Source: Quercus robur
Lineage: Eukaryota; Streptophyta; Magnoliopsida; Fagales; Fagaceae
Reading direction: 5' to 3'
NCBI RefSeq assembly: GCF_932294415.1
Contig: NC_065539.1
Coordinates: 52,223,501 to 52,287,500 of the forward strand
Length of the DNA stretch: 64,000 nucleotides
Shown here: in pieces, positions 7,930-64,000 of the stretch
Layout: each line of letters begins with the position of its first letter
How positions within the stretch are numbered: position 1 is the first letter of the stretch
The notes under the pieces: generated by a model
Databases searched by the model: none
What the model was told of the DNA's origin: nothing
What the model saw: only the letters and a program-made list of their open reading frames with translations
Translations under genes and position numbers: made by a program

Positions 7930-8324
7930 ATGAGGTAATTTTGTTACTTATAATTTAGTAGACATGCTAGAGGATATTCTATCTCATCTTAATACTGTAA
8001 TCTTATTTGATTTGACTATATTTTCTTAATAATATTTATGGTGTTCTAAAAAAAAAAAAAGTTAATTTTGTAACTTATAATCTAATAGACATGTTAGATG
8101 ATATTCTGTCTCATCTTAATGTTGTAATCTTATTTGATTTGACTATTTTTTTCTTAATAATATTTACGGTGTTCTAAAAAAAAAAAAAAAAGTAATTTTG
8201 TAACTTATAATCGAGTAAACATGCCAGAGGATATTCTATCTCATCTTAATGGTGTAATCTTATCCAACTTAACTATCTTTTCTTAATAATATTTACGGTG
8301 TTCTCAAAAAAAAAAAAAAAAAAA
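7930..8324. repeat. Three direct repeats of about 120 bp, each ending in an A run
   Basis: A unit starting near TAATTTTGT-ACTTATAAT and ending in TATTTACGGTGTTCT plus an A run occurs three times, at roughly 7935-8061, 8062-8189 and 8190-8324. The copies differ by scattered substitutions and by A-run length. The TTAATAATATTT...TTCT-A(n) ending resembles LINE 3' UTR tails. It may be a tandemly repeated LINE 3' end or repeated insertions at one site; the sequence does not decide. Confidence 0.75.
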
Positions 8325-8915: not shown

Positions 8916-11900
8916 ATGAATGGTGTTACAGCTATTGAACCAGATTACACTGAGTTTGTTGAAGTTGATCCCACTGGAAGATATGGAAGAGTATGTTAAT
9001 ATAACCTTTGTTGCTCACTTTTGGTTCTTGCTTTCTCTCTGTGTTTTTCATTGCCTGTTGGTGTTTTATGCTCTTAGTAACATGGTGTGATTTTTGAGCT
9101 CCCCATATTTGCTATTTTTTGCAGTACAATGAAATTCTTGGCAAAGGAGCTTCAAAGACAGTGTATGAGGCTCTCTTCTCTCCATATTTTGCATACCCTT
9201 TTCAAATTTCTGCAAGTTACCTACTCTTTTGGCATTCTATATGTTATTCTATTAATATAATGGTTTTGCAAATGAATGGGTGGTTGGGTTGTATTAGAAT
9301 TGTTGCAGTTATAGAGCCTTTGATAAACATACAAATTCTGCAAGTTAACTACTTTTTTTGGCATTCTATATGTTATTCTGTTAATTGGACTTGTTGCAGT
9401 TATAGAGCTTTTGATGAACATATCCTTTTCAAATTCTGCAAGTTATCTACTTTTTTTTTTGGCATTCTATCTGTTAATATACTGGTTTTTGCAAATGAAT
9501 GGACCTATTGCAGCTATAGAGCCTTTGATGAGTATGAAGGAATTGAAGTGGCATGGAATCAGGTAAAGCTCTATAACTTCCTGAAAAGTCCTGAAGATCT
9601 TGAGAGGCTGTACTGTGAAATTCATTTGCTCAAGACCTTGAAACACAACAACATCATGAAGTTCTACACTTCCTGGGTTGATATTGCTAACAGGAACATT
9701 AACTTTGTCACTGAGATGTTCACCTCTGGTACTCTCAGACAGTAAGCATCATAAAGTTCAAAACTTTATTGTTTCTCACCAATTTTTTTCTTATTTTTCT
9801 GATCTGGGATTTTGAAATTTATTGGATTTTCAATGCTGGAATTGTTTTGTAGGTATAGGCTAAAGCACCGGAGAGTCAACATTAGAGCAGTGAAGCATTG
9901 GTGTAGACAGATTTTGAAAGGCCTTCTATATCTCCACAGCCATGACCCTCCTGTTATCCATAGGGACCTCAAGTGTGACAACATTTTTATCAATGGGAAC
10001 CAAGGGGAAGTCAAGATTGGTGATCTTGGCCTTGCTGCAATCCTGCGTAAATCTCATGCTGCTCGCTGTGTTGGTAAGCTTTAGTGTTTTAAGTTTCCCT
10101 CAAAGCTAGAAACTTGCTTACAATTTCAGAATAGTTCACTTAGAATACAAGTATTTCTGTATATGTAACCACCATCAGTTTGGCATGCTATTCTTAGACA
10201 ATGAATCAATCTGGGAAGAGTTTTAGTAGTTTGTGATTATATCCATTGGTTTTCTTTTCTTTATCAGGAACGCCAGAGTTCATGGCACCAGAGGTTTATG
10301 AAGAGGAATACAATGAATTAGTAGACATATATGCTTTTGGAATGTGCATCTTGGAGATGGTAACCTTTGAATATCCATACAGTGAATGCACCCACCCTGC
10401 TCAGATATACAAGAAAGTTATCTCTGTAGGAACTCAAAACTTTAAATTTTCTTTCCAGATTGAATTTTGTCTCCACCAACTAATTACTTATTGCATCTTG
10501 TATGTAGGGGAAAAAACCAGAGGCTCTTTATAAAGTAGAAGATCCTGAGGTGCGACTGTTTGTTGAAAAATGCTTAGCAACTGTGTCCCGTAGGCTCACT
10601 GCTAGGGAGCTTTTGAAGGACTCTTTTCTCCAAATTGATGATTATGGATATAATTTAAGTCCAATAGGGTACCGAGGAGATTTTGATGAATTAGGCCCTC
10701 TCTTAAGAGAACCCCACTACGGAATTTATCATAGTAACTGCTCTTTGATCAACGATTATGGCAATTATCTTGGTTATATACCTGAAAATGATTTTGAAGC
10801 AAGTGAACTTGATCTCTTCACTTGTCAAGAGGATGAGCATTTGGCAGATGTTGACATCGCAATCAAAGGGAAAAGAAGAGAAGATGATGGCCTCTTTTTA
10901 AGGCTCAGAATTGTAGATAAAGAAGGTTAGAGTTATGACATAATTTGTTTTATTATACCAAAATGCCACTTTTCTTCTTTCCTTAAATGATATAAGTAAG
11001 CACTGAGACCAAATTGAGCATTACTTTCCTCTGTGCAGGCCGTATTCGAAACATCTACTTCCCATTTGACATTGAGACTGACACAGCATTGAGCGTTGCG
11101 GCAGAAATGGTGGCAGAGCTTGATATCACTGACCAAGATGTGACAAAAATAGCAGATATGATTGATGGTGAAATTTCTACCTTGGTGCCTGAGTGGAAGA
11201 GGGGGCTTGGCATAGAGGGAAGTCCACATAACACAAGTGCAAGTTTCTGTCACAATTATGTTTCAAATGGTTCTCTATTGGATTATGTGTCATCAAATAA
11301 TCCAGGTGCCAAGAATCTGCAAGTTCTTCAGTGTTCTAAGCAAGGAGGTGCTGCTGTCCATGGCCGTTTCGAAGAAATTACTTATCAGGTAGAAGAGTCT
11401 GAACAATGTGTCACTGAAGGTGCACCAAAAACATCAAGCCAGTCCGGTGTTGGCATCCATTTTGCTGACATCTGGGCTCAGCTAGACGGGCCGGAATTGA
11501 GTTCACAGAGGTCAAGAGAGATCCACTGGGATGAAGGAAGTAAAACATTGGACCAAACACCCTTTGGATCAGATGAGAGAATTATAAATGTGGATGATCA
11601 ATGTATATCCAATGCAAGAAACTCTCTCTCCACAACCACTTCAGCTGACTATGCCCTCTTGGATGATTCTGAGAATGAAATTAGGCAAGAATTAAGATGG
11701 CTCAAAGCAAAGTATCAAATGCAGTTGAGGGGGCTTAGAGACCAACAATTAGGAGCAAAATGGAAATCTTCAAGCATGTCTCCAAAATCGCCACCATTGG
11801 ATTCTCCCCCACTAAAGAGAGAGAGCAATGAAACTATCCTGGAATCTTTGTCCCCTGGGAAGCATTTCACTTCAGATTTTCCCGTTGCTGCTGATAAGAA

Positions 11901-12060
11901 ATGCTCCAGTGTGGCAAACCAAAGTGAAAATTCTGAGGGAATCAATGAGTCTTTTTGTCCTGAGAAGATGTTTACTGCCAAGAATTTCTATTCAGGAGTT
12001 TTGCTTCCACACTCTCTTCACAGGGCAACTTCTCTTCCAGTTGATGCTGTAGATGTTTAA
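8916..12060 (+). CDS. WNK: WNK (With-No-Lysine) serine/threonine protein kinase
   Basis: Seven coding exons with GT-AG junctions: 8916-8990, 9125-9162, 9514-9741, 9853-10073, 10268-10425, 10508-10925, 11039-12060. They join in phase to 719 aa. The protein opens with [20 protein letters not shown], then [20 protein letters not shown]. As in all WNK kinases the usual beta-3 lysine is missing (Asn about 53 in VAWN) and a lysine in the glycine-rich loop (about K36) takes its place. HRDLKCDN (about 150-157), DLGLA (about 171) and GTPEFMAPE follow. An OSR1-C-like (PF2-type) domain spans about 367-430, and the plant-WNK motif [16 protein letters not shown] lies near 590. Family knowledge: plant WNKs are soluble kinases linked to osmotic/ABA responses, flowering time and the clock. 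The sequence looks closest to the Arabidopsis WNK1/2/3/9 group; the exact orthologue is not resolved. No disabling change was found. Confidence 0.93.
9198..9535 (+). repeat. Triplicated intron-end/exon-start repeat inside the WNK gene
   Basis: Three diverged copies of a 100-130 bp block carry an AAATTCTGCAAGTTA-like start, a T run, GGCATTCTAT, a splice acceptor TTGCAG and the first bases of exon 3 (TATAGAGC-TTTGAT). Acceptor-like CAGs end at 9308, 9399 and 9513; the last gives the family-consensus protein YRAFDEYEG. Intron 2 (9163-9513) is 351 bp, divisible by three, and has no stop in the exon frame. Confidence 0.85.
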
Positions 12061-24944: not shown

Positions 24945-25260
24945 TTATTTGGCAATGTCAGTGATTTTCAAATTTTGGTTTTAAACATTAAACCAGCTAT
25001 ATATATAATATATTACATGCGTAAATAAATCAGAAGGTGGCTAAAAATTTGTTAAAAAAATTATTCTTATGCACTTAATGCTGCAAGTAGCTTAGAAACA
25101 TGGGGTAATTATAGAGAAATAATACTATATAGCAAATAAGATATTGAAATAAGTTTCTGATATGGCATTTCAACTAAAGTAAAAGTTTTTAATACAACTA
25201 GGCGGAAATATAAAACAAGTTAATTCTGTACTTGAAAATATGTTACAAAGACATAGATAA

Positions 25261-25524
25261 TTTATTTTCTTCTTCAAGTGCCTTTACGAGCCGAATATGG
25301 TATATGCCATACAGACTTCCGAACAGATTGCAATTATCATTATCATATCGGCCTCAAAAGATGGTAGTTTTCAAGCAATTCATCCTCTGAAATTTATTTT
25401 CTTCTTCAAGTGCCTTTACGAGCCAAAAATGGTATATGCCATACAGACTTCCGAACAGATTGCAATTATCATTATCATATCGGCCTCAAAAGAGGGTAGT
25501 TTTCAAGCAATTCATCCTCTGACA
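25261..25524. repeat. 132-bp tandem duplication of the last exon/3' UTR of FLAP1-like copy B
   Basis: TTTATTTTCTTCTTCAAG starts at 25261 and again at 25393, and the following 130 bases are nearly identical. Each copy contains the end of the coding sequence (GGCCGATATGA on the minus strand). The upper copy holds the stop codon used (25477-25475); the lower repeats the terminal LRPI-stop sequence as untranslated DNA. Confidence 0.85.
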
Positions 25525-28500
25525 ATGTATCATGTTCTGCCTGCGGGCTCCAAAGCACCTCTACTGCCTGCAAAATTGTTAAACATACATTTAGAGATAA
25601 CTTTTCTAAGAAATTTTTTCACAACTGCTGTATCGACAAATTGTTAAATGGTTAAGCTCAATTGACAAAGTTGTGTCAATGGTGGATCTATATATATATA
25701 TATATATATATATATTCTGACGTACCAGTGTATTACTGGAACTGATGGTATTCAAGTAATTCAAGGCTGTCCTCAAGTCTTCAGTACTTTTAATTTCAGG
25801 TAGATTTAATGCACCTTTAACAGCTACCAGGATTGTTACCTGAGAATGAATTTAAATTAAAGGAATAGACTTACAGACCTGAAAAAGACATAGAAGTGGG
25901 AACAAACTAGTGCTATAAATCGACTCTCCATGATCCAAGTTATTGATTCTTGGTTGAGTTCTAGTAAAGATAATTCATTTTATAACACCTTAAGCTTAAA
26001 AGAAAGACCCAAATTGTAATATCAAGCTCTAAGACACACTAACTCTTAACAGTAATGAGTAAGTATTTACAAGGAAGCATATCTGTATGTGCAATTAATA
26101 ATTATAGCAACTAATTAGCACAATAGGTGTGCCTGATATTTATATTTAGAACCCATAAAAGATGAAATACCACTATGAAATTTTTTTCAACTTTGTTGTT
26201 CCTTGGGATAAAGGTTCTTTGTACTTTCATGTTGTCAACATTGACAAGCGACTCAATGTCATATTTCAACCTCTCATCAGTTGAAAGTTGTCTGAATTCC
26301 TTTTCCACAGCTTCAAGATTCCACCTCCGTTCCACCTGCAAGAATATTTTGAGTGCATCAAAAGTGCTGTGTTGTTAAATAATCATTAAAAAGAAAAATT
26401 CTTTTAAATTGGAGTGATCAGTTGGAAGCAACCAAAAAATACAAGCGTCTTTTTCTCAAAATTTTCAACCAAAAAAAAACAACAAATTATTGGTATTTTT
26501 TTTTGGCACATACATTCAATTTCTACTGTGACATTACAACACTAAGATTCTTCTATATAACAATCTAAAGATTGAATTTCTAATAGTGCAACAATAGCCT
26601 GACTGAAGTAGTGGAACTAAAACAACATAACTCTTCCAGCACAGGTTGTGGAATTAAACTGAAGGACCAAAATACCGCAGCAGCTTAACTTAATCACTTG
26701 ACCCTGCTCACTCCCTAATACAATGTCATCATCACTTCTGTCCGAGCATAGTCTGAATTATCATACGTCAATTATACAGAGCTTTTTTCTTTTTTATAAC
26801 CATCAAAACAAAATTTTGTGCAAAGGATTTGTCATTGTATTAATTAAAAAAATCCTGGAGTTTATTGTTAGGGACACAAATGGATAGGAAGGAGAGCCTA
26901 ATGCACACCACCATATATTTACATCATCATTGATGAACCCATATAACCAACCCAGCTTCAACATGGGCCATTAATTGGCATCTCCACAGGAACTAGAATA
27001 TGCCATGTGCTATTTTACCTTAAAATTATACCGAAGGACTAAACTAAACCACTTAACCGGGTGAACAATGTCCGAATTATTTAAATTATGCACGACAACA
27101 ACTACAAAGAGACCAAAGAGATGTTGTAACAGAATATAAGCCACAAGTAATTTCATAATGGAGGACAGATGGTGACCTAGTGATGATTATCAAGAATTCT
27201 GGTACACTGTAATCTGATGAGAATTAAGAAACTCAAAAAGATCAGCTTAGTTCAGATATGGTCCAATTGAATTGACTAACAATCCTTCCATCAACTTCTG
27301 TTATATGTGCCATAGTACAAATCTAATGCAATAAGTGGATGCATGCCATAGAAGATGTACTTGACACATTAAAGAAACTCAACATGAATAGGGAAGCTCT
27401 GGAAAGTCCAGTTTGATAAGGTAAAAGTAGACCCAAAAACTTTGATAAAGAAGACTAGCGCACTCTTTCTAGTACAGACAAGGTAGAGAAACAACCATGT
27501 TTCATATGATCACGTATTTGCATTTAGAGATTGACATACAGTTATAACCCCATCATACTAAAGTTAAAGTACACAACTTGAAAACAGAAGAATAGTTTCT
27601 GCATTTATAATAGGAACATCAGCAGATTTTTCTAGATGAGAGGAAAAAGAAATTAAACAGAAGAAAAGTAACGTTTAATATCAAGGCTGTATTAGCTATT
27701 GTATGCACAACAAGAAGAAGCTTAAAACTATGGTTTAGAGTACTGGCTTTAATTTTAATAACAGCATTGAAGCAATATCTTACTAAGATCACTTTGAAGA
27801 TTATACTTCTCAATTATGTAATGATGAAGAAAAATCGTGAACTTTAAAGGCTACTAAAGCACCATCAAAACCCCTTTAGAATATTAGACTCACAGATGAA
27901 TAACCAGAAATCCAGTAATTTCGATGCCGAAGCAGAGCTACTGCAGACTCTGCAACCAAAATAAAAAGGACAAGTATGTCACATGAGATAATATGTAAAA
28001 CTAGCCAAAGTTTTGAGGCATTTAATATGCAAGTGATGAGCATGAAGACAAACTAGTGATGCTGTAATGGCTATAATAATTAACTTCATTTCAATATCAG
28101 CTATATCAATGCATTTTTTCCTGAAAAAACATAATACTATTTTTTCCACCAATGAAATAATTGTAAAAGTATGCAAAGTTCATGAGAATTTATAGTGCAC
28201 ACATAGAGAACCAATCATGCATGTGGAAAAAAATAAAAATAAAACAGTTGGACAATAACAAAAAGGATTTTGTTGTTGCCATTCACAAAATAGAAATTTC
28301 ATTAAACTATATAATCATGTTATCCTGTATTGTAAATGGACTAGTTTGAGTTCCAAAAATTTCCACGCCAGATTTAGAACAGGGGCATGGAACTTCATTA
28401 GAAAAAACATTTAACTTATCCTCATCTACACCTTGGATGAAATATGGTACAATACTGCATATCTAGTCAAAAAATGGTAATTCCCTTGTCAATAACTTCG

Positions 28501-49019: not shown

Positions 49020-50418
49020 ATATAGACTTCATAGGAACTAGATGGAGTTTGGGTCGGAACAGTAACATCAGCTTCTGGTTTGACAGGTGGACCTCAGAAG
49101 GTCCGATAAGGAGTCTTATCCATGGTCCTCTCACTAGGGAAGAGGAGGAGTTGAGAGTTGGAGATATAGCGTCGGAATTTGGATGGAATTGGTGCAAAAT
49201 TTCTATGGAGCTTCCTGCAAAGACCTATATGGAAATCAAGGCCATGCCTCATTCTCGTGTATCAGAAGAGAAGGATAAACTCATATGGGCTGCTACCTCT
49301 AATGGGGAATTTAACCTTGCCAGTGCTTACAAGATTGCTTCAAATCAGGTGGATTTTGTCCCTGCTTTTAATGGTTGTTGGATTTGGAAATTAAAAATTA
49401 TGCCAAAAATCCAGTCTTTCATCTAGATGTGCTTACACAGAAGTATTGCAACTCGGGAATGTCTTGCCAAAAGGGGTATTCCGATTAACTCTTCTTGCCC
49501 CTTTTGCCACCAATCTTCGGAATCAATCCTTCATCTTCTTCGAGATTGCCTTGCGATTTCTACTGTTTGGCATAATCTAAATCCTCTTGGCCTTGCTTCT
49601 ACCTTATTCTCTCAAGACTTACACACTTGGCTTGAATCCAACTGCAGAACCGGGAATAAGGTCTGCTCCTTCTCTGTTCTGTGGCATATCCTTTTCTCTT
49701 TCGGAATTTGGTCTATTTGGAATCACCGAAACAAGGTTGTCTTCCAAAACCGTACTCCCTCTTCTTCTCTTCATCAGGAAATCATCCAAAGGGCAATGGA
49801 AATTTTCTTTTGTGCCTAAGGCAGCAGCCTTCATAAGCCGAAGTTGATCAAGATGATTAGATGGGAAAGACCCTGTAGGTGTTGGTATAAGTTGAACAAG
49901 GACGATTCTGCAGCTGGGAATCCTGGGGTTGCTGGGGGAGGCGGCGTGCTTAAGGATGATGCAGGTGTGTGGGTTAAAGGCTTTGCTAGACAAATTGGTC
50001 ATACTACCAACTTCTTAGCAGAGCTTTGGGCTCTTAGGAATGGCCTTATTATGTGTTCAGAGCTACATATTAATGCTCTAGAAATAGACTTGGATGCCAA
50101 AGTCATCGCTGATTTGATGAATAACTCAGGGTCTTCCATTGCTTCTAATTCCTCTATATTGGCTGATTGCAGGCTCTTGATTTCCCGTTTTCCTCAAGTT
50201 AAAGTGAAGCACTGCTATCAAGAATCAAACTCCTGTGCAGATGCTCTTGCCCGTCAAGGATCCAAGCTTCCCTCTGATTTTTTGTATTTCTCTTCCCCTC
50301 CCCCTTGGTTGTTTAACGTTTATGTTTCGGACCTCTATGGCCTCTATCATTCCAGGCTTTGTCCTGGCCCAGTTGTATCTTCGCCTCTTTTTTAGTTTAA
50401 TGCAATCTCCAGTTTACC

Positions 50419-54527: not shown

Positions 54528-57500
54528 ATGGAAGAGGGGTTGAGATCTGGTGGCCCTTCGGGGCTAGTGGTGAAGAATAGGAACTCTTCGGGTTGTTTAA
54601 TCGTTAGGAAAAAGAGTGGGGATGGGGTGGGAGGAGTGGCTGGTTCTTCGAGTTCTCGAAAGGTTTACGAGCGGAGAAAGGAGAAGAAGAGGTCTAGGTT
54701 GGTTTTGAGTGATTCGGGGTCGAGTGACGAGCTTTTGCCCACGCCTCGGAGAAGGGTTGCCCCTGAAACTATTAGGGTTTGCAATGGTTTATCTGCCTAT
54801 GATAAGGGTATTGGAGAGGGGAGTGGAGTTGTTCGAAAGAGGGATAGGTTGGATCATGTTAGGCATTATGAGGATGGTATGATTGGTAGGAATGGCTTTG
54901 ATGAGAGCGAAAGGAAGAGGAATAAGATGGATGTTTTTGAGTTTGATGAGTATGATGGGCTTGATGGGGAAAGGATGCGTAGGAAACGTTTCGATGGTAG
55001 TGGAATTGAAGTTGGAGGAAGGAGGTATTTTGGATCGATGGATAAGCCTCGAGGTGGGATGGAGAGGGAATATGAAACCGGGCCGAGTAGACATGGTTAT
55101 GACAAGAGAAAAAATTTATATTTTGACCGGACAGGTGGCTTGAATTTGGGAGATAATGTGGATAATGGTAGGTTTAAGATGAGTAGAGATGGAGCTCAGC
55201 TACCTCAATCATTTTTAAGGGAGAAGTTCGGGGGTCATTCAGATGAGCCGATTAGAGTTCAGGGCAAAAATGGTGTTTTGAAGGTGATGGTAAACAAGAA
55301 GAAGAAATTGGGTGGTGGGCCTTTGGAAAATTTTGATCCCCGCAAAGCTGAGGAAAGTAGAAAGAGTTTGAAAACTCCAGATGTTGCTAAAAGGAATATA
55401 GTAATTCATTCTTCATCATACCCACCTGAGACAAAACTTATAGAGAAACCAGGTTTATATGTCCGGCCAGAAAAAAGTCAGCTGGCTTTGCAGAAATCTC
55501 TATCAAGTAAGAATATCAAGGGTGTCAAATGGGATTCAGAGGACAGTGATACGTCATTAAAGCTAAGATTGAAGAATGTGGAGGCCCATGATTCTATGAA
55601 GAAGGTAAGTTGCAAAGAAGAAAATACTCCTATGAAAATAGTAAGTTCCAAAGAAGAAAAGACTCCTCCTTGTGAGAAGCTCCCACCAACTGCAATTAAA
55701 GAAGGAAAAGTTAGGCGTGGTAGTGGCACAGAAAAGCAAAAACTGCGTGAACGGATTAGAGGGATGCTTCTGGAAGCTGGCTGGACAATAGATTATAGGC
55801 CTAGGAGGAACAGAGACTATCTAGATGCTGTGTACATTAATCCCTCAGGAACAGCGTACTGGTCAATCATCAAGGCCTATGACGCACTTCAAAAGCAATT
55901 GAAAGACGAGGATGATGAGGCCAAAGTCAGTGGGGACATTGCTTCATTTGCTCCTATAGCAGATGATGTGCTCAGCCAATTAACCAGGAAAACTCGAAAG
56001 AAAATTGAGAAGGAACTGAAAAAGAAGCGAAGAGATTACAGTGATAGTGAGAATGAAGCAGAACCTGCTGTGAGAAGATCTGCAAGTACCAAGCATGATG
56101 TGGATAGCATGGACAGTGCTAGCCATGAAGAGAAACTAAGCTCCTTCATAAAGCAGGGTGGTAAGTCAATGAAGGGTAGAATGAATGAAAATGGTTCTGC
56201 CAGTGTAAACTCAAAAAGTCAAAATTCTACTCATGATAGCATTGAAAAAGTATCCTCTGGATCCAATTCCCGTATCCTACATGGAAGAAAGAGTAGAAAA
56301 CTTGGCAGATGTACTTTGTTGGTTCGTAGTTCTAAGAAGGGGCAAAATTCGGAAACTGATGGTTTCATTCCATATACTGGAAAACGGACACTACTTTCCT
56401 GGCTGATTGACTCTAAAACTGTGGAGTTAAGCCAAAAAGTGCAGTATATGAACCGTCGGCGGACTCGAGTAATGCTGGAGGGTTGGATTACACGAGATGG
56501 CATTCATTGTGGCTGCTGTAGTAAAATCCTCACTGTTTCGAAGTTTGAGATTCACGCAGGGAGCAAATTGCGTCAGCCATTTCAACACATATATCTGGAT
56601 TCTGGGATTTCTCTTCTGCAGTGCCAGATTGACGCATGGAATAGCCAGGAAGAGTCTGAACGCATTGGTTTCCACTCTATAGACATAGATGGAGATGATC
56701 CAAATGATGACACTTGTGGCATCTGTGCAGATGGTGGGGATTTGATCTGTTGTGATGGTTGTCCATCAACATTTCATCAGAGTTGCTTGGACATACAGGT
56801 GTGTACTTGATATCATTGCACTTGCACGATGCCTTATGCTTCTCTACATGGTAGTACTTGTATTAATAACAATGATGTCCTTTTAATTTTTTTTCTAGAT
56901 TTTCCATGATATTCTTCTGTTGGTCATTTGTAATGTTTTTAATTACATATTTATTAAATTAAGGTCTATATTGGAAGAAGAGGATTTAGAGACTTCAAAG
57001 ATTTCTTTTAATGTTTAGATTTGACAAGTGCAAAAGCTGTTGAATCAAATTATGGCATCTTTGTTGTGTGATGTGTTCGTCTGGGGTACATTGTTGAGGG
57101 AAGTGAGATTTATTTATTTATTTATTTATTTTAGAAGAAGAGAAGTGAGATATAGGTTGTGTTAGTTTTAGGATTTTGCAGATGGGGGGAAGGCATGGAG
57201 GGGGTTGGGAATATCATCTCATCTATTACTCTTTAGTGTTAATACTTGAGGGGCACTTGTTCGCTGAAGATATTGAATCACTGAATAGTGTGAGTCTTTG
57301 TTGTGGTGAACTGTTATGGCTAACACTTTTGCCTAAAGTGAGCTATGGCTTTTGGTACTTTTAGTTGTTTGTATGGATGGATGGATGGAGGGAGGGATGG
57401 AGAGTTGGTACTCTAATGCAAGACTCATGCTAAGTTTTGTCCTGGTAGTATTTTTTCTCTATGAAGGAAAATGCAGCTAATAGCTTAACCTGGCTTGCTT

Positions 57501-60500
57501 GTATGGTTGACTACTTGCAGTATAGTTGTATGATATAATGAAAAAAATAATTTTTTGATCAGTAATATAACGAAAAAATATAAAACCTAATATACAATGT
57601 TGGCTGTTTGATGATCTAAACAAAACCTCAGGACTTTTGGGATTAAGATTCTATGTTGGATTTGTTTTCCTCACAGCTTACCCATATAACCTCAAGTCTT
57701 TAAATTTTGGGATGATGGTGCATGTTTTGTGGGTTGTTGTTAGCTTTGGGCAGTCAAAGTATTGCTTTACCTTCATTGTTTCCTCCTTTGCTACTTGAGT
57801 CAGTCATATCTTTCTTCTTGTTACAGACACTTCCACCTGGTGATTGGCACTGTCCAAATTGTACATGCAAATTTTGTGGGTTAGTCAGTGTGGGTGTTGC
57901 TGAAGGAGATGATTCTACGGCCTCTGCACTACTCAAGTGTAGTTTGTGTGAGAAAAAATGTAAGCTAGTCATCTTTTGCTTCCTCTCTTTGAAGCCTTTT
58001 CAATGGATTATATGCTTTTGTTTTATCAAAATACAGATAATATTTTTGTTGAAATTTAAATTTCTCTTTTGCAGATCATGAATCATGCATGCCAGAGACG
58101 GATGCTATTCCTGTTGATTCCAATAATCTAGTCCCTTCCTTTTGTGGGCAAAAATGTAAAGAGGTATCTCTTTTTCATGCTAATTCATTTAAATATCTTA
58201 AGTTTTTTAATAGTAATACTTTTTAATAGGGGAAAAAAATAGTATAGTTTTAAAAGTATCTGTTAAATTGTTTAGTTGGTGGTGCAAAGAACTTTTGAGG
58301 CGATTTTGTACCTAATGAGTTATTAGGATATGGAAATTACTACTATTTCTTTTATTTTTGACAAAAGATTAGTTAATGCCATGGCTAGTTACCTTTCCCA
58401 TCCGAAATCTAGTGTCAATGACATATTACAACCTGCATACATTTATTGATACTTTTCCTTGTGATCTTATATAATACATGGGTGCATTTTTAATGGACCT
58501 TTTGCTGATCTTGTGTGCAAATCGCGTTACCCTATTCTTGACATAATGTGGCTTCACCCATCAATCTTTATTATTTTTGCATTATTTCTGAGGTTTTAGA
58601 TCTAATGACATCCGAATATGGTAATTTGTGTGTATTCTCAATTCTGTCCCTTCCAACATTCAAATATCTAGAATTTTCTCTGTAATTTTTTAGACTTTAG
58701 GCTACTTCATTTATTTTTTCATGAAGTACTTTCGATGCATTAAAATTATTCTTACCTATAAAAAAAAATCTAGAATTTTCTCTTTTTGATATTTCACAAA
58801 TATAGCAGTTTTTGTTTGGTTTCCTTGTATGTCTTGCTAGTTATAGTTTTATATATATCTCTCATTTTACTACATGTATGGCACTGTCTTGACTTGTATT
58901 CTGTTGCTTCTACAGATCTTTGAGCATTTGCAGAAGTATCTTGGAGTCAAACATGAACTGGAAGCAGGCTTTTCTTGGTCTCTTATTCATAGAATGGACG
59001 AAGACTCAGACACATCTCTTCGAGGGCTTCCTCAAAGGGTGGAAGGCAATTCTAAGCTAGCTGTTGCACTGACTGTTATGGATGAATGCTTTTTGCCAGT
59101 TGTTGACAGGAGGAGTGGGGTTAATTTGATACATAATGTTCTTTATAATTGTGGGTAAGTTCTAAATTTTATACTTAAGCTGAAACAATATTGCTTTGGC
59201 CAACAGTTGACAGACCATGTGATCCTCATGAATAGTTCTAACTGTGGCTTTCGTATTTCATGTCATAAGCTTTTTAGTTTTTGCTGAGCTGTGTGTTAAA
59301 TGACTGCTATTGTTGCTTAGATTGGTTTCTGAGATTTTCTTTCCTCCCTTACCCCCTTCTTTTACTGATTCTTAACTGGCTTAATGTATGTTTATTACGT
59401 TCATTTAAGCAGGTTCTATGTTTCTCTCATTGCTAATGAATTTTGACATTTTAATATTCTTTTATTTCTTTACCTATGATTCTAACTAGATTGTTTTGTA
59501 TATAGTGGCATGTACAGTTGTATGCATTTGTAGACATGGATAAATGATATATAATAATCTTCATTTTTGAATGAACAATCACTTTTATATGCATAAATAT
59601 GATTTTATTGAATTTGAATGAGCTTATAATAATTTTAGGCTGAAGGTATGTCTTTGGAGATCGGTCATCTGAATTTGGATTTTTTTAAACTTTACAAATT
59701 TTCTGTATTATCATGCTGAAATTTTTTTATCATTGAAAAGTTGACCTTTTATTCACTACTTTTTTTTGAGAAAGTTTTATTCACTACTTAGATGGGGTAT
59801 AATGTACATACTTTTAGTCAGAAATAGAATGAGTCACATTTGATGTGGACGTGGTGTTGGAAATCTGAACTTCTCTAATTGGAGATGTGGAATCCGGAAA
59901 TATGGTTTTGTGTTTGTGTAGAGCCATTATTTAAATATATGTTTGTTTAACCGTATACATATGATGAACAGTTAAAAGTAAAACAAGGAATCTCTATATT
60001 TTATGGTGATATAAAGTTGTACTGTTGTGTTTAGTGACATGAGTGGATATAGGTTTCATGTTAACATGCCTTTGTTGAACGAAATGTTGATAGGGGGAAG
60101 TGTCCTATATGTTAATTAGAGAAAAATCCTACAATAAATTAACCTGTCTTAAAAAATAATAATAAAAAATTATGGTAATGCACTCTGGCTCAATATATGC
60201 ATGTGTGTATTATACTGAATTTTTCCCCCTACATCTACATTTCCTCAAACTGAAAGCAGTAGTACATTTTCTTTTTTTGATAAGTAATTTCATTAAAAGC
60301 CAAAATAGAGTTGCCCAAGTACACGGGCAGTATACAGGAGGCAACTCAAAAACAAGAACAGAAATCAGCAGTACATTGTTTCTTGAAATGGATGTAGGAA
60401 AGGCACAACACAGATTAGAATGATCCTTTAGCATGCCCACCATCAGTCTGTTATGATGCTTAGACCTGATAATGCAGTATTTTGCAAACAAAGCGTACTC

Positions 60501-63500
60501 TGTCCAGGCTAGTAAAGAGGAATTGAGGAAAGACCGTGCCACTCAAAAGATGAAGCTTGAAGGTCAGGACTCATTTAGTGTCAAAATTGGGAAGATATAT
60601 TATAAATGTGTTAACTTATTGATTGGGATTGGTGTTAGCGTTGAAGTAGCTGAATAGCAAAATAAGCTTTAGTAAAGAAAGGAATCACCCTCAAATTGTG
60701 CCCACCTGAATTTTATGGGACTTTAATTTAAGGTTAAGTTGTAGCAAACTTATGTGTGATCGAAAGTTCAATTTGATTGGAAAAGATTGTTGTGATGACA
60801 CAATTATTTAATGCGATACTGTGCTTTAGCAAGCTCAATGGTATAAATATGCCATAGGATACTGGTTCACTTTTTAAGTTTTTGAGCTTTTTTGGTCCAC
60901 TGTCATTTTGTCTTAATTACTTTTTCTAAATCCTTTACTAAGCTGTTTGATGTGTAATTGGTTCTAAACACTGAACCTATTTGGTATATATAATGTGGTT
61001 TCTAAGTAAATATTTTATTGTGTGTGCACACATGACTGCTCAGTTTAATGGAATAAGTTATTCACTTTTCTAGAGTACTTAGGCATAATAAAAGCTGTTA
61101 CTTATTTTACTGACCATCTATATTATATTCTTTGTGAAACATATGTTGTACCATTTGTCTGAAGGTAATTAGTTTCCCATTTTTCTTTTCTTTTTCTACT
61201 CCAGATCAAACTTCAATCGAATAAACTATAGTGGCTTCTACACTGCTATTTTGGAGAGGGGTGATGAAATAATCTGTGCAGCATCTATCAGGTACCATAC
61301 CCCAAACTTTCATCAGTCACTATTATGTTTCTACTTTGCACTTTATTATTTTTTAGCGTGAACATAGGAAAATTAATAGAAAAGAGGAAGGTTTTGTAGT
61401 GGCAATGATGTGCTACAGAACATAATTTGTTCGCCCCTTGCCTTCTGGGTGCCTGGGCGAGGACAAGGATATGGTTTATTATTCCATGCATTTATACAGG
61501 ATCTAAGTTGAATTAGTAACAATATCCAAACTACTTGATGCTTGGACAAAGTCATTGTGTTTTGGAAAATCATGTGGGACGTGCTTAAGGGAAGCATGCT
61601 CTTCCTCCTCTTATCAGAAGGGAGCTCTTCAATTGTATTGGTCTTCTTGTGAATGCCTATGTCCAAGAGATTTTCTGTTATTCTGGTCCAGCTGAAGTAT
61701 TAGGTCCATCACTACTTTTCGTTCCTCTTTTTCTAAGTGAAGCTTTCTTGGGTCAGTGGTTTTACATGTTGGTGTTGTTACATGCATATTTTTAAAAACT
61801 AGACCAGATAAAGAACCGCTTCTGGTCCTGTTTCCAGCTGAGCAGGTTGGTCCAGTCCGGTTTTTATAACTAAGATTTTCCCCCTCAAAAGTTTCATAAA
61901 GCTAAAAATCAGTTCTGGTTCCTAGCTTTGACTGGCTCTTGAGCAGATTTCTCATGTTAATTATCCCAATTCCCTATGATGTATGTATAAGCCTTTTTAA
62001 TAGGGTCTCAAGCATGGCTATTAATTATGTACTGTACCAGCCGGAATATGTCTGACCGGTTACCAAACCAGTGTGCATAAACCCCATGAAATGTAATGCT
62101 ATAAATTTCAGGCTGTTAGTGTCTTCCTCTTCCAGCCATTGCAGATAATTTTGGATCTTTGGGCCAGTTCCTACCTTTCCGACCGATTTTAAAACTGGAC
62201 AATTGTTTTATTTTATTTTTTATTTTTAAATTTCTCGTAATCTCAGTGGCCATGGAGGACATGGGCTGAAGGTAGGCTTTGGCAACCTGCTTCATGATCA
62301 GTTGTACATTGAGCTCTTGTACTTAGCTTTGGTGGTGGAGGCGGCATTCAGAAAATACCCATCGTTTCTAACACTTAATTAGCCTTAAGGTCTCTATTAT
62401 TGGAAACACGGTTCTATTAGAATAATAATACAAAAAAAACAAGGCCCATCAAAATCAATTTGCAAAATAGGCTTCACATGCAATTAGATTCATATGCAAT
62501 CAAGATTTTTTTTCATCTTCCACAGTTCCACTGCCCAAATATGTAAACTGCAAACTGAAACAACACTTTCAATGAAATAACCTCTACCCAAGAAGAAAGA
62601 CTAAGATTGAAGAAGATTTCAAATCAAAGCAGCGAGGGAGGAGTGATATCAATTTAGCCCATTTGGAAGTGCTTTGTGATTGAGAGAGAGAGGAGAGAAG
62701 TGTGAGATATACAACAAATGGCTTTCATGTTTATCTCTTGGTCCTTATTTTCTTCTTTTTGCTGTCAGGTGTCTAGCGCCACCCCCCCCCCCCCCTTTCT
62801 CTCTCTTCATTTAGCTATTTTGAGATCAGTCCTGAAGTTCTTTAAAATTATAGAAAGCTTTTTGGTTAGATACACCAATGCTGACTGGTACTGAAATATT
62901 TTTTCTCTTGATTTAACCGAAATAGCCTTGTGCATGGTATTTATAACTTTTGTCTTGAGTATTTTGCCTAAATATTAAATCAAGGAATCCATTTTATGAT
63001 AATTCTAAAAAACTTGCTCTCTTCTTTTATGCCTTTAGTGGGCCTGTGTGTGTATATATCATTATGTTTTACTGCCGAGTTAAAGTTCTGGTGTGAGAGA
63101 GGAATTCCCGTTTGGTGGGTTTTGAGATCCATATGATTTCTGCTTGTGTATGTGGAATGCAATACTTACCATCTCAGTGTCTTCTGCCTGGTTAGGTTCC
63201 ATGGGACTAAGTTAGCAGAGATGCCATTTATTGGAACTCGCCACATATATAGGCGTCAAGGGATGTGCCGTCGGCTTTTTGGCGCTATTGAATCAGTAAG
63301 CTACAAGAACTACTATTTCATTGGGGATTTCACTAGCATGGAATAGAGATTCAAAATTTTGCATCTCTTTATTTATTTATTTTTTAATGTGCTTGCTTTT
63401 CGTTTATGTCATTTACTTCATCCTGCTTTTGTCCTATTTGAAGGCTCTGTGCTCTCTCAAGGTTGAGAAACTGATTATTCCTGCAATTGCTGAACTCATG

Positions 63501-64000
63501 CATACATGGACTATGGTTTTTGGCTTCACTCCTCTTGAGGAATCTCTCAGGAAAGAAATGAGATCGATGAATATGTTGGTATTCCCTGGTACAGATATGT
63601 TACAGAAGCTGCTACTTGAGCAAGATAACATGGAGGGGAACATGACAGGCAGCACAGGTACTGGTTGTGGTGTTTGTTTTCTATCTCTTTGCTATATAGT
63701 TATGGTGTGTCGGTTAAGTTTTTATATATATACATTTCTTTCCTATAGGCGCAAAGCAGATGGAGTGCAAAATCAAGCTTTCTACTAAGCCTGAGGCGGA
63801 AAATAAATCTGATGTGGATTCCTTAGCTGGGCATGATTCTAATGGGTGTAACAGCAATGGTTCGGATCTTGCTAAGGAGATAGCTGATGAAGTTGCAGCT
63901 GCAGATGATAAATCTGATAAGGACTCCTCTGTTGGGCATGATCCTCATGCGTGTGATGATACTGGTTTGCATGATGCTAATGAGTTAACTGATGAAGTTG
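54528..64000 (+). CDS. PHD-finger / GNAT-domain chromatin protein, IDM1-related (partial)
   Basis: Eight coding exons are visible: 54528-56798, 57827-57959, 58075-58163, 58916-59154, 61205-61291, 63196-63295, 63444-63657 and 63749 to beyond 64000; about 1128 residues so far, all junctions in phase. The long first exon encodes a basic low-complexity N-terminus, a conserved [19 protein letters not shown] block (about 404-455), and the [20 protein letters not shown] region (about 620-700). A PHD finger begins at about 727 ([20 protein letters not shown]) and ends after [23 protein letters not shown] follows. The C-terminal half is an acetyltransferase-like (GNAT) fold with [16 protein letters not shown], the acetyl-CoA-binding-type motif, and GFTPLEESL. 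Arabidopsis IDM1 of this superfamily acetylates histone H3 to guide active DNA demethylation; the N-terminus here looks more like the At1g05380/At4g14920 group. The last exon (acidic repeats of [13 protein letters not shown] type) is cut by the window edge. Confidence 0.9.
59747..59788 (-). mobile_element. Ultra-short LINE-tail insertion with 14-bp TSD, in an intron
   Basis: TTTTATTCACTACT occurs at 59747-59760 and 59775-59788 around a 14-bp insert of seven T plus GAGAAAG (CTTTCTC plus an A tail on the minus strand). It lies in intron 4 of the PHD/GNAT gene. Confidence 0.65.
60262..60370 (-). mobile_element. Possible retroelement 3' end in intron 4 of the PHD/GNAT gene
   Basis: Read on the minus strand, CTCCTGTATACTGCCCGTGTACTT-like sequence runs into AATGAAATTACTTATCAAAAAAAG. 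This resembles the 3' end with polyadenylation-like tail of a plant LINE/RTE-type family. No domain is visible, so the call is tentative. Confidence 0.35.
62780..62797 (+). repeat. C-homopolymer tract in intron 5 of the PHD/GNAT gene
   Basis: A run of about 15-16 C follows GCGCCA and precedes a CT-rich stretch. Confidence 0.85.

Follow-up and report, generated by a model that had tools for sequence, protein, structure and literature searches.

Two spare splice acceptors in intron 2 of a Quercus robur WNK kinase gene, probably left by small tandem duplications spanning its junction with exon 3

Introduction

A tandem duplication that spans an intron-exon boundary is reported to have made a new intron in the potato RdRp gene PGSC0003DMG402000361, for which RNA-seq support of 106 reads was given (PMC4974935). 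Like the unit described here, the duplicated unit in that gene took in the 3' part of an intron, including its putative branch site, pyrimidine tract and acceptor, and continued into the beginning of the exon that follows. In Drosophila, near intron pairs are described as arising by intron sliding or by tandem duplication (PMC2891723), and our locus shares with these pairs the displacement or multiplication of splice signals through small tandem duplications. A third system to be considered is that of exitrons, whose GC content is reported to be above that of introns (PMC4484396), and which share with the intron studied here a length that is a multiple of three and the absence of an in-frame stop.

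Here we describe intron 2 of a plant WNK kinase gene, in which three copies of such an intron-exon unit are found. The window, that is, the whole stretch of DNA analysed, is 64,000 nucleotides long and comes from Quercus robur (contig NC_065539.1, positions 52,223,501 to 52,287,500); all coordinates below are positions within it. Its gene content would be that of plant-like nuclear DNA.

Results

The coding span of the WNK gene lies on the forward strand at 8916-12060, with seven exons, the borders of which were set by eye, at 8916-8990, 9125-9162, 9514-9741 and 9853-10073 (exons 1 to 4), and 10268-10425, 10508-10925 and 11039-12060 (exons 5 to 7). Once joined, these exons translate into 719 amino acids with no inner stop, and the protein matches the Pfam Pkinase family (E 4.1e-49) and carries an OSR1_C-type domain C-terminal to the kinase domain (Pfam E 7.2e-06). 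Comparison of the kinase domain with the sequences of solved structures returned 177 distinct matches at E up to 1e-20. The best 15 of the 177 are all WNK3 (5) or WNK1 (10), with a best E of 9.6e-87, and the next match, among the best 60 that were examined, is PAK-2p34 (E 4.8e-31). With WNK3 and WNK1 as its closest solved structures, the kinase domain is, as judged by sequence, that of a WNK. The stretch GKGASKTVY aligns with GRGAFKTVY of WNK3, lysine on lysine; the WNK3 counterpart of the glycine-rich loop and lysine stretch is LGRGAFKTVYKG, and VAWNQ aligns with VAWCE. WNK1 is reported to replace the usual catalytic lysine by Lys233 from strand beta2 (PMC4718504), and the hallmark is found here as well, with a beta2 lysine beside the glycine-rich loop (GxGxxKTVY) and no lysine at the usual place in beta3.

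Intron 2 of this gene (9163-9513, forward strand) is 351 nt long and in phase 2. One unit occurs there in three direct copies, all imperfect, which fill approximately 9192-9532; this amounts to all of the intron minus its first 29 nt, plus about 19 nt of exon 3. An earlier note had described the end of the intron and the first bases of exon 3 as triplicated; the three copies are indeed there, and what needs correcting is the unit, which is larger. Copy 1 (9192-9327, 136 nt) contains a spare acceptor ending at 9308 and a copy of the exon head at 9309-9327, copy 2 (9328-9418, 91 nt) a spare acceptor ending at 9399 and an exon-head copy at 9400-9418, and copy 3 (9419-9532) the authentic exon 3 head, preceded by the end of intron 2 with the acceptor that ends at 9513. 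All three lie on the forward strand, and their junctions are uncertain by a few bases. In the alignment, copy 1 carries an extra stretch, and copy 2 lacks an internal block that copies 1 and 3 carry. The copied part of exon 3 is about 19 nt long (CTATAGAGCCTTTGATGAG), and every copy has kept TTGCAG(T/C)TATAGAGC(C/T)TTTGAT. At the junctions the exon head abuts the left end of the unit (GATGA-ACATATCC and GATAA-ACATACAA). In copies 1 and 2 the exon head is followed by ACATA, which would fit that left end better than it fits exon 3.

The same arrangement appears as direct-repeat families of 39 nt (at 9293, 9384 and 9498, with 90% and 74% identity to the first copy), 30 nt (9227, 9356 and 9457) and 28 nt (9204, 9332 and 9430). 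The best ungapped self-match (+1/-1) scored 31, with a maximum of 15 among 100 dinucleotide shuffles. When the three copies were aligned from the first shared TTCTGCAAG, gap columns excluded, copies 1 and 2 mismatched at 7 of 86 columns (92% identical), copies 1 and 3 at 17 of 99, and copies 2 and 3 at 15 of 87 (each about 83% identical). Among the 86 columns free of gaps in all copies, 67 agree in all three and one in none, and agreement confined to a pair is found in 12 columns for copies 1 and 2, 4 for copies 2 and 3, and 2 for copies 1 and 3. Direct copies that span the acceptor and hold intron and exon parts in one unit are what tandem duplication leaves. The hexamer TTGCAG as such is not enriched in the window (42 occurrences on both strands, 35.2 expected, with 42 reached by 11 of 100 shuffles), and the argument therefore rests on the context that the copies share. 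An assembly artefact was considered and rejected, as the copies differ at 8-17% of their aligned columns and have copy-specific insertions and deletions.

Elsewhere in the window no strong match to the repeat unit was found, the best outside intron 2 and the exon 3 head having an E of 0.049. Scans of collections of viral contigs (1 pattern stretch) and prokaryote genome contigs (20 pattern stretches) confirmed no plant relative, as would be expected of such collections. Two other tandem arrays were seen. At 7935-8321, with the WNK start codon about 600 nt further on, three units of some 130 nt lie in tandem, each with an A run at its end and all about 88% alike, and comparison of this array with the intron 2 repeat gave no match except one of 13 bases (E 0.63). 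The second array, at 25259-25530, comprises about two copies of a unit of 132 nt (44 codons), with 96% matches, and lies within one stop-to-stop frame of 128 codons, for which Pfam gave no match up to an E of 0.01. Retroelement remains, which we take to be of the non-LTR type, lie at 49427-50392, where adjacent frames match the Pfam families zf-RVT and RVT_3 (reverse transcriptase-like). Finally, at 54528-63785 on the forward strand, there is one long frame in which TDBD and DUF7028 are found together with part of a PHD finger, the latter below its cut-off, as well as a separate frame carrying the IDM1 C-terminal domain; the two frames, putatively of one gene, probably represent an IDM1-like gene.

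In agreement with the earlier note, no stop is found in the exon frame across the 351 nt of intron 2, whereas the two remaining frames of that strand contain 5 and 10, and a stop-to-stop frame of 215 codons (9098-9745) spans exon 2, intron 2 and exon 3. The intron interrupts the Val codon of K-T-V; the insertion point thus adjoins the WNK catalytic lysine, as had been claimed, but lies past Lys-Thr rather than directly after the lysine. In composition (GC 0.316, T 0.44) this is an ordinary intron, AT-rich and T-rich like the other five, as the GC of all six WNK introns is 0.27-0.36. The other five are 82-194 nt long. An in-frame stop is absent from two of the six (intron 2 and the 82-nt intron 5, whose length is not a multiple of three), and the length is a multiple of three in two (intron 2 and intron 3, which has 3 stops). 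Because stop-free introns whose length is a multiple of three are described as rare and counter-selected (PMC4484396, citing Jaillon 2008), intron 2 is in an uncommon state.

It could be argued that this state reflects translation of the retained intron as a 117-residue insert, in the manner of an exitron, and the 351 nt with no in-frame stop are what such a reading would call for. Its GC content, however, lies within the 0.27-0.358 of the other five introns and below every one of the seven exons (0.368-0.462), whereas exitrons are reported to be internal parts of coding exons with higher GC, a subset of them exon-derived (PMC4484396). Moreover, the conserved protein is the form without the segment, so intron 2 is not part of a known exon, and retention would probably disrupt the beta2 strand past KTVYEA. 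We therefore consider this reading very improbable. A coding domain within the retained segment was rejected, as no Pfam family matched it at E up to 0.01, and so was a structured RNA inside the intron, since no Rfam family was found in the window at gathering scores.

How much meaning the open frame carries was evaluated in several ways. The exon frame was free of stops in 4 of 5000 dinucleotide and 1 of 5000 mononucleotide shuffles of intron 2, and in 2 of 20000 repeat-aware simulations, which were crude in that indels and changes were placed at random; this rarity is a post hoc figure. Over both strands of the window, coding sequence included, 1482 of 127298 stretches of 351 nt (1.2%) are open. 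Of 1053 possible single substitutions in the frame, 52 would make a stop, and neutral change over half the observed distances would be expected to yield 0.75-1.7 new stops, with a probability of none between 0.47 and 0.18, a figure which presupposes that the frame was open at the time of duplication. A frame already open could hence have survived neutral divergence by chance, an outcome that, depending on the distance assumed, would range from rather unlikely to nearly even.

The TTGCAG acceptor-like sites reported in the earlier note are all present, at 9303-9308, 9394-9399 and 9508-9513 of the forward strand, and the products that it had foreseen were recovered upon translation: joining exon 2 to the first spare acceptor brings a stop as the 14th codon, joining it to the second adds 38 residues in frame, and retention of the intron adds 117 residues with no stop. 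Among the three joins, only that of 9162 to 9514 aligns with WNK3 without an insert, through KTVY and VAW, and restores the conserved kinase sequence. The 9399 product reads KTVYRAFDEH, then a hydrophobic stretch, then a second YRAFDEYEG. Because the exon head was copied, this product could keep a complete beta2 strand, with the insert effectively placed between beta2 and beta3. The 9399 extension has a mean hydropathy of +0.74 and the retained form one of +0.79, compared to -0.29 for the kinase domain, and the best 19-residue window reaches 1.85 in the 9399 insert versus 1.29 in the normal protein. Donor-like GTTAAC (9344, copy 2) and GTTATC (9442, copy 3) were also seen by eye, and would permit cassette exons at 9309-9343 (35 nt) and 9400-9441 (42 nt, in frame).

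Acceptor strength was ranked, roughly, with a position matrix trained on the five other introns of the WNK gene, which it favours by construction. The sites ending at 9308 and 9399 both scored 4.2, and 9513 scored 0.7, as did an AG at 9216; the five training acceptors scored 11.6-20.1, values inflated by the training. The T share of the tract is 38% before 9308, 51% before 9399 and 41% before 9513, and branch-like YTNAY motifs are found upstream of each site, at distances of 53 nt from 9308, 51 and 15 nt from 9399, and 36 nt from 9513. The spare acceptors have not decayed. Since 9513 scores below them and equals the AG at 9216, the local sequence gives it no advantage, and its role as the main acceptor would follow from the conserved protein. 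The spliceosome is described as scanning 5'-to-3' for an AG past the branch point (PMC10946897), and an upstream acceptor would accordingly be helped if an upstream branch site were chosen.

With the near sequence not favouring 9513, real room is left for minor use of 9399, and it is conceivable that this site serves a regulated in-frame isoform in some tissues. The higher matrix score, the branch-like TTAAC 51 nt upstream, the T-richer tract, a translation in which the beta2 strand with its catalytic lysine would be complete, and an open frame that is rare under shuffling would all agree with such use. On the other hand, the hydrophobicity of the insert is what a translated T-rich intron would resemble, the retained segment has no Pfam match at the cut-off given above, and 12% of 114-nt stretches in the window (15328 of 127772, both strands) are open anyway, and we hold the regulated isoform to be unlikely. 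In such an isoform, the 38 residues would form an enlarged beta2-beta3 loop that could tune activity or location, a change of kinase activity by in-frame isoforms being what the earlier note had envisaged. For the 9308 site, an alternative is that of a poison acceptor, where the early stop would lead to nonsense-mediated decay and the choice of acceptor would set the level of the kinase. The stop at the 14th codon and a score exceeding that of 9513 are compatible with this, yet a random out-of-frame acceptor would be expected to meet such a stop, a spacing of 91 nt simply is not divisible by three, and among the three tracts that of 9308 is the poorest in T, which makes a role of this kind highly improbable.

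Discussion

Taken as a whole, these data are probably best accounted for by two successive small tandem duplications across the intron-exon boundary, with 9513 as the main acceptor and the other two as spares. Subtracting the spacings of 91 and 114 nt from 351 would give an ancestral intron 2 of about 146 nt, a length within the 82-194 nt of its five neighbours. The first duplication would have run from a breakpoint close to the start of the intron (about 9192) to one some 19 nt into exon 3, and a second round would have produced the closer pair, copies 1 and 2, with an internal loss in copy 2. That these two copies are the most alike fits one duplication followed by another, in an order that we infer without an outgroup. 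The two events would have lengthened the intron and added two upstream acceptors, leaving copy 3, which is attached to the body of exon 3, as the sole source of the conserved kinase. As only this last copy yields that kinase, most mRNA would be expected to join 9162 to 9514, and the upstream sites would be spare or cryptic, with use of 9308 giving a premature stop and use of 9399 some 38 mostly hydrophobic extra residues. Such sites are expected by-products of tandem duplication and may have no selected function; the most likely state of the locus is, in fact, that of a by-product of small tandem duplications, a known kind of event.

There are also differences from the described systems. The donor of the new potato intron came from a small, formerly exonic segment, whereas in the WNK gene the edge of the copied part cuts the donor-like GTATG of exon 3. 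A new intron as in potato is unlikely, the copied part of the WNK exon being devoid of GT. The WNK gene, furthermore, has three copies, and 9162-9514 can be removed as one longer intron. The Drosophila pairs change intron positions, whereas intron 2 would keep its position in the WNK protein with 9513 as the acceptor. Exitrons differ as well, given that intron 2 has ordinary intron composition and that the form lacking it is the conserved protein. A search of titles and abstract openings found no published plant WNK isoform at intron 2, which does not prove that none exists.

In WNK1, the catalytic lysine is tied to chloride sensing. One could envision that the middle acceptor is "self-repairing", in that its use would give a complete beta2, a mostly hydrophobic insert of 38 residues and a second YRAFDEY leading into beta3, and hence a splice-controlled loop beside the catalytic lysine, with 9308 as an out-of-frame off position; this we regard as quite improbable, and a functional reading of the spare acceptors is, in general, unlikely. 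In this one short intron, the spliceosome has three near-identical acceptors to choose from, of which only the last yields the normal protein, and the locus nonetheless offers a clean natural test of that choice. Should the middle site be used, this would illustrate how small duplications can place an insert under splice control next to a catalytic residue; should it never be used, the last acceptor would be firmly chosen even though its near context is no better.
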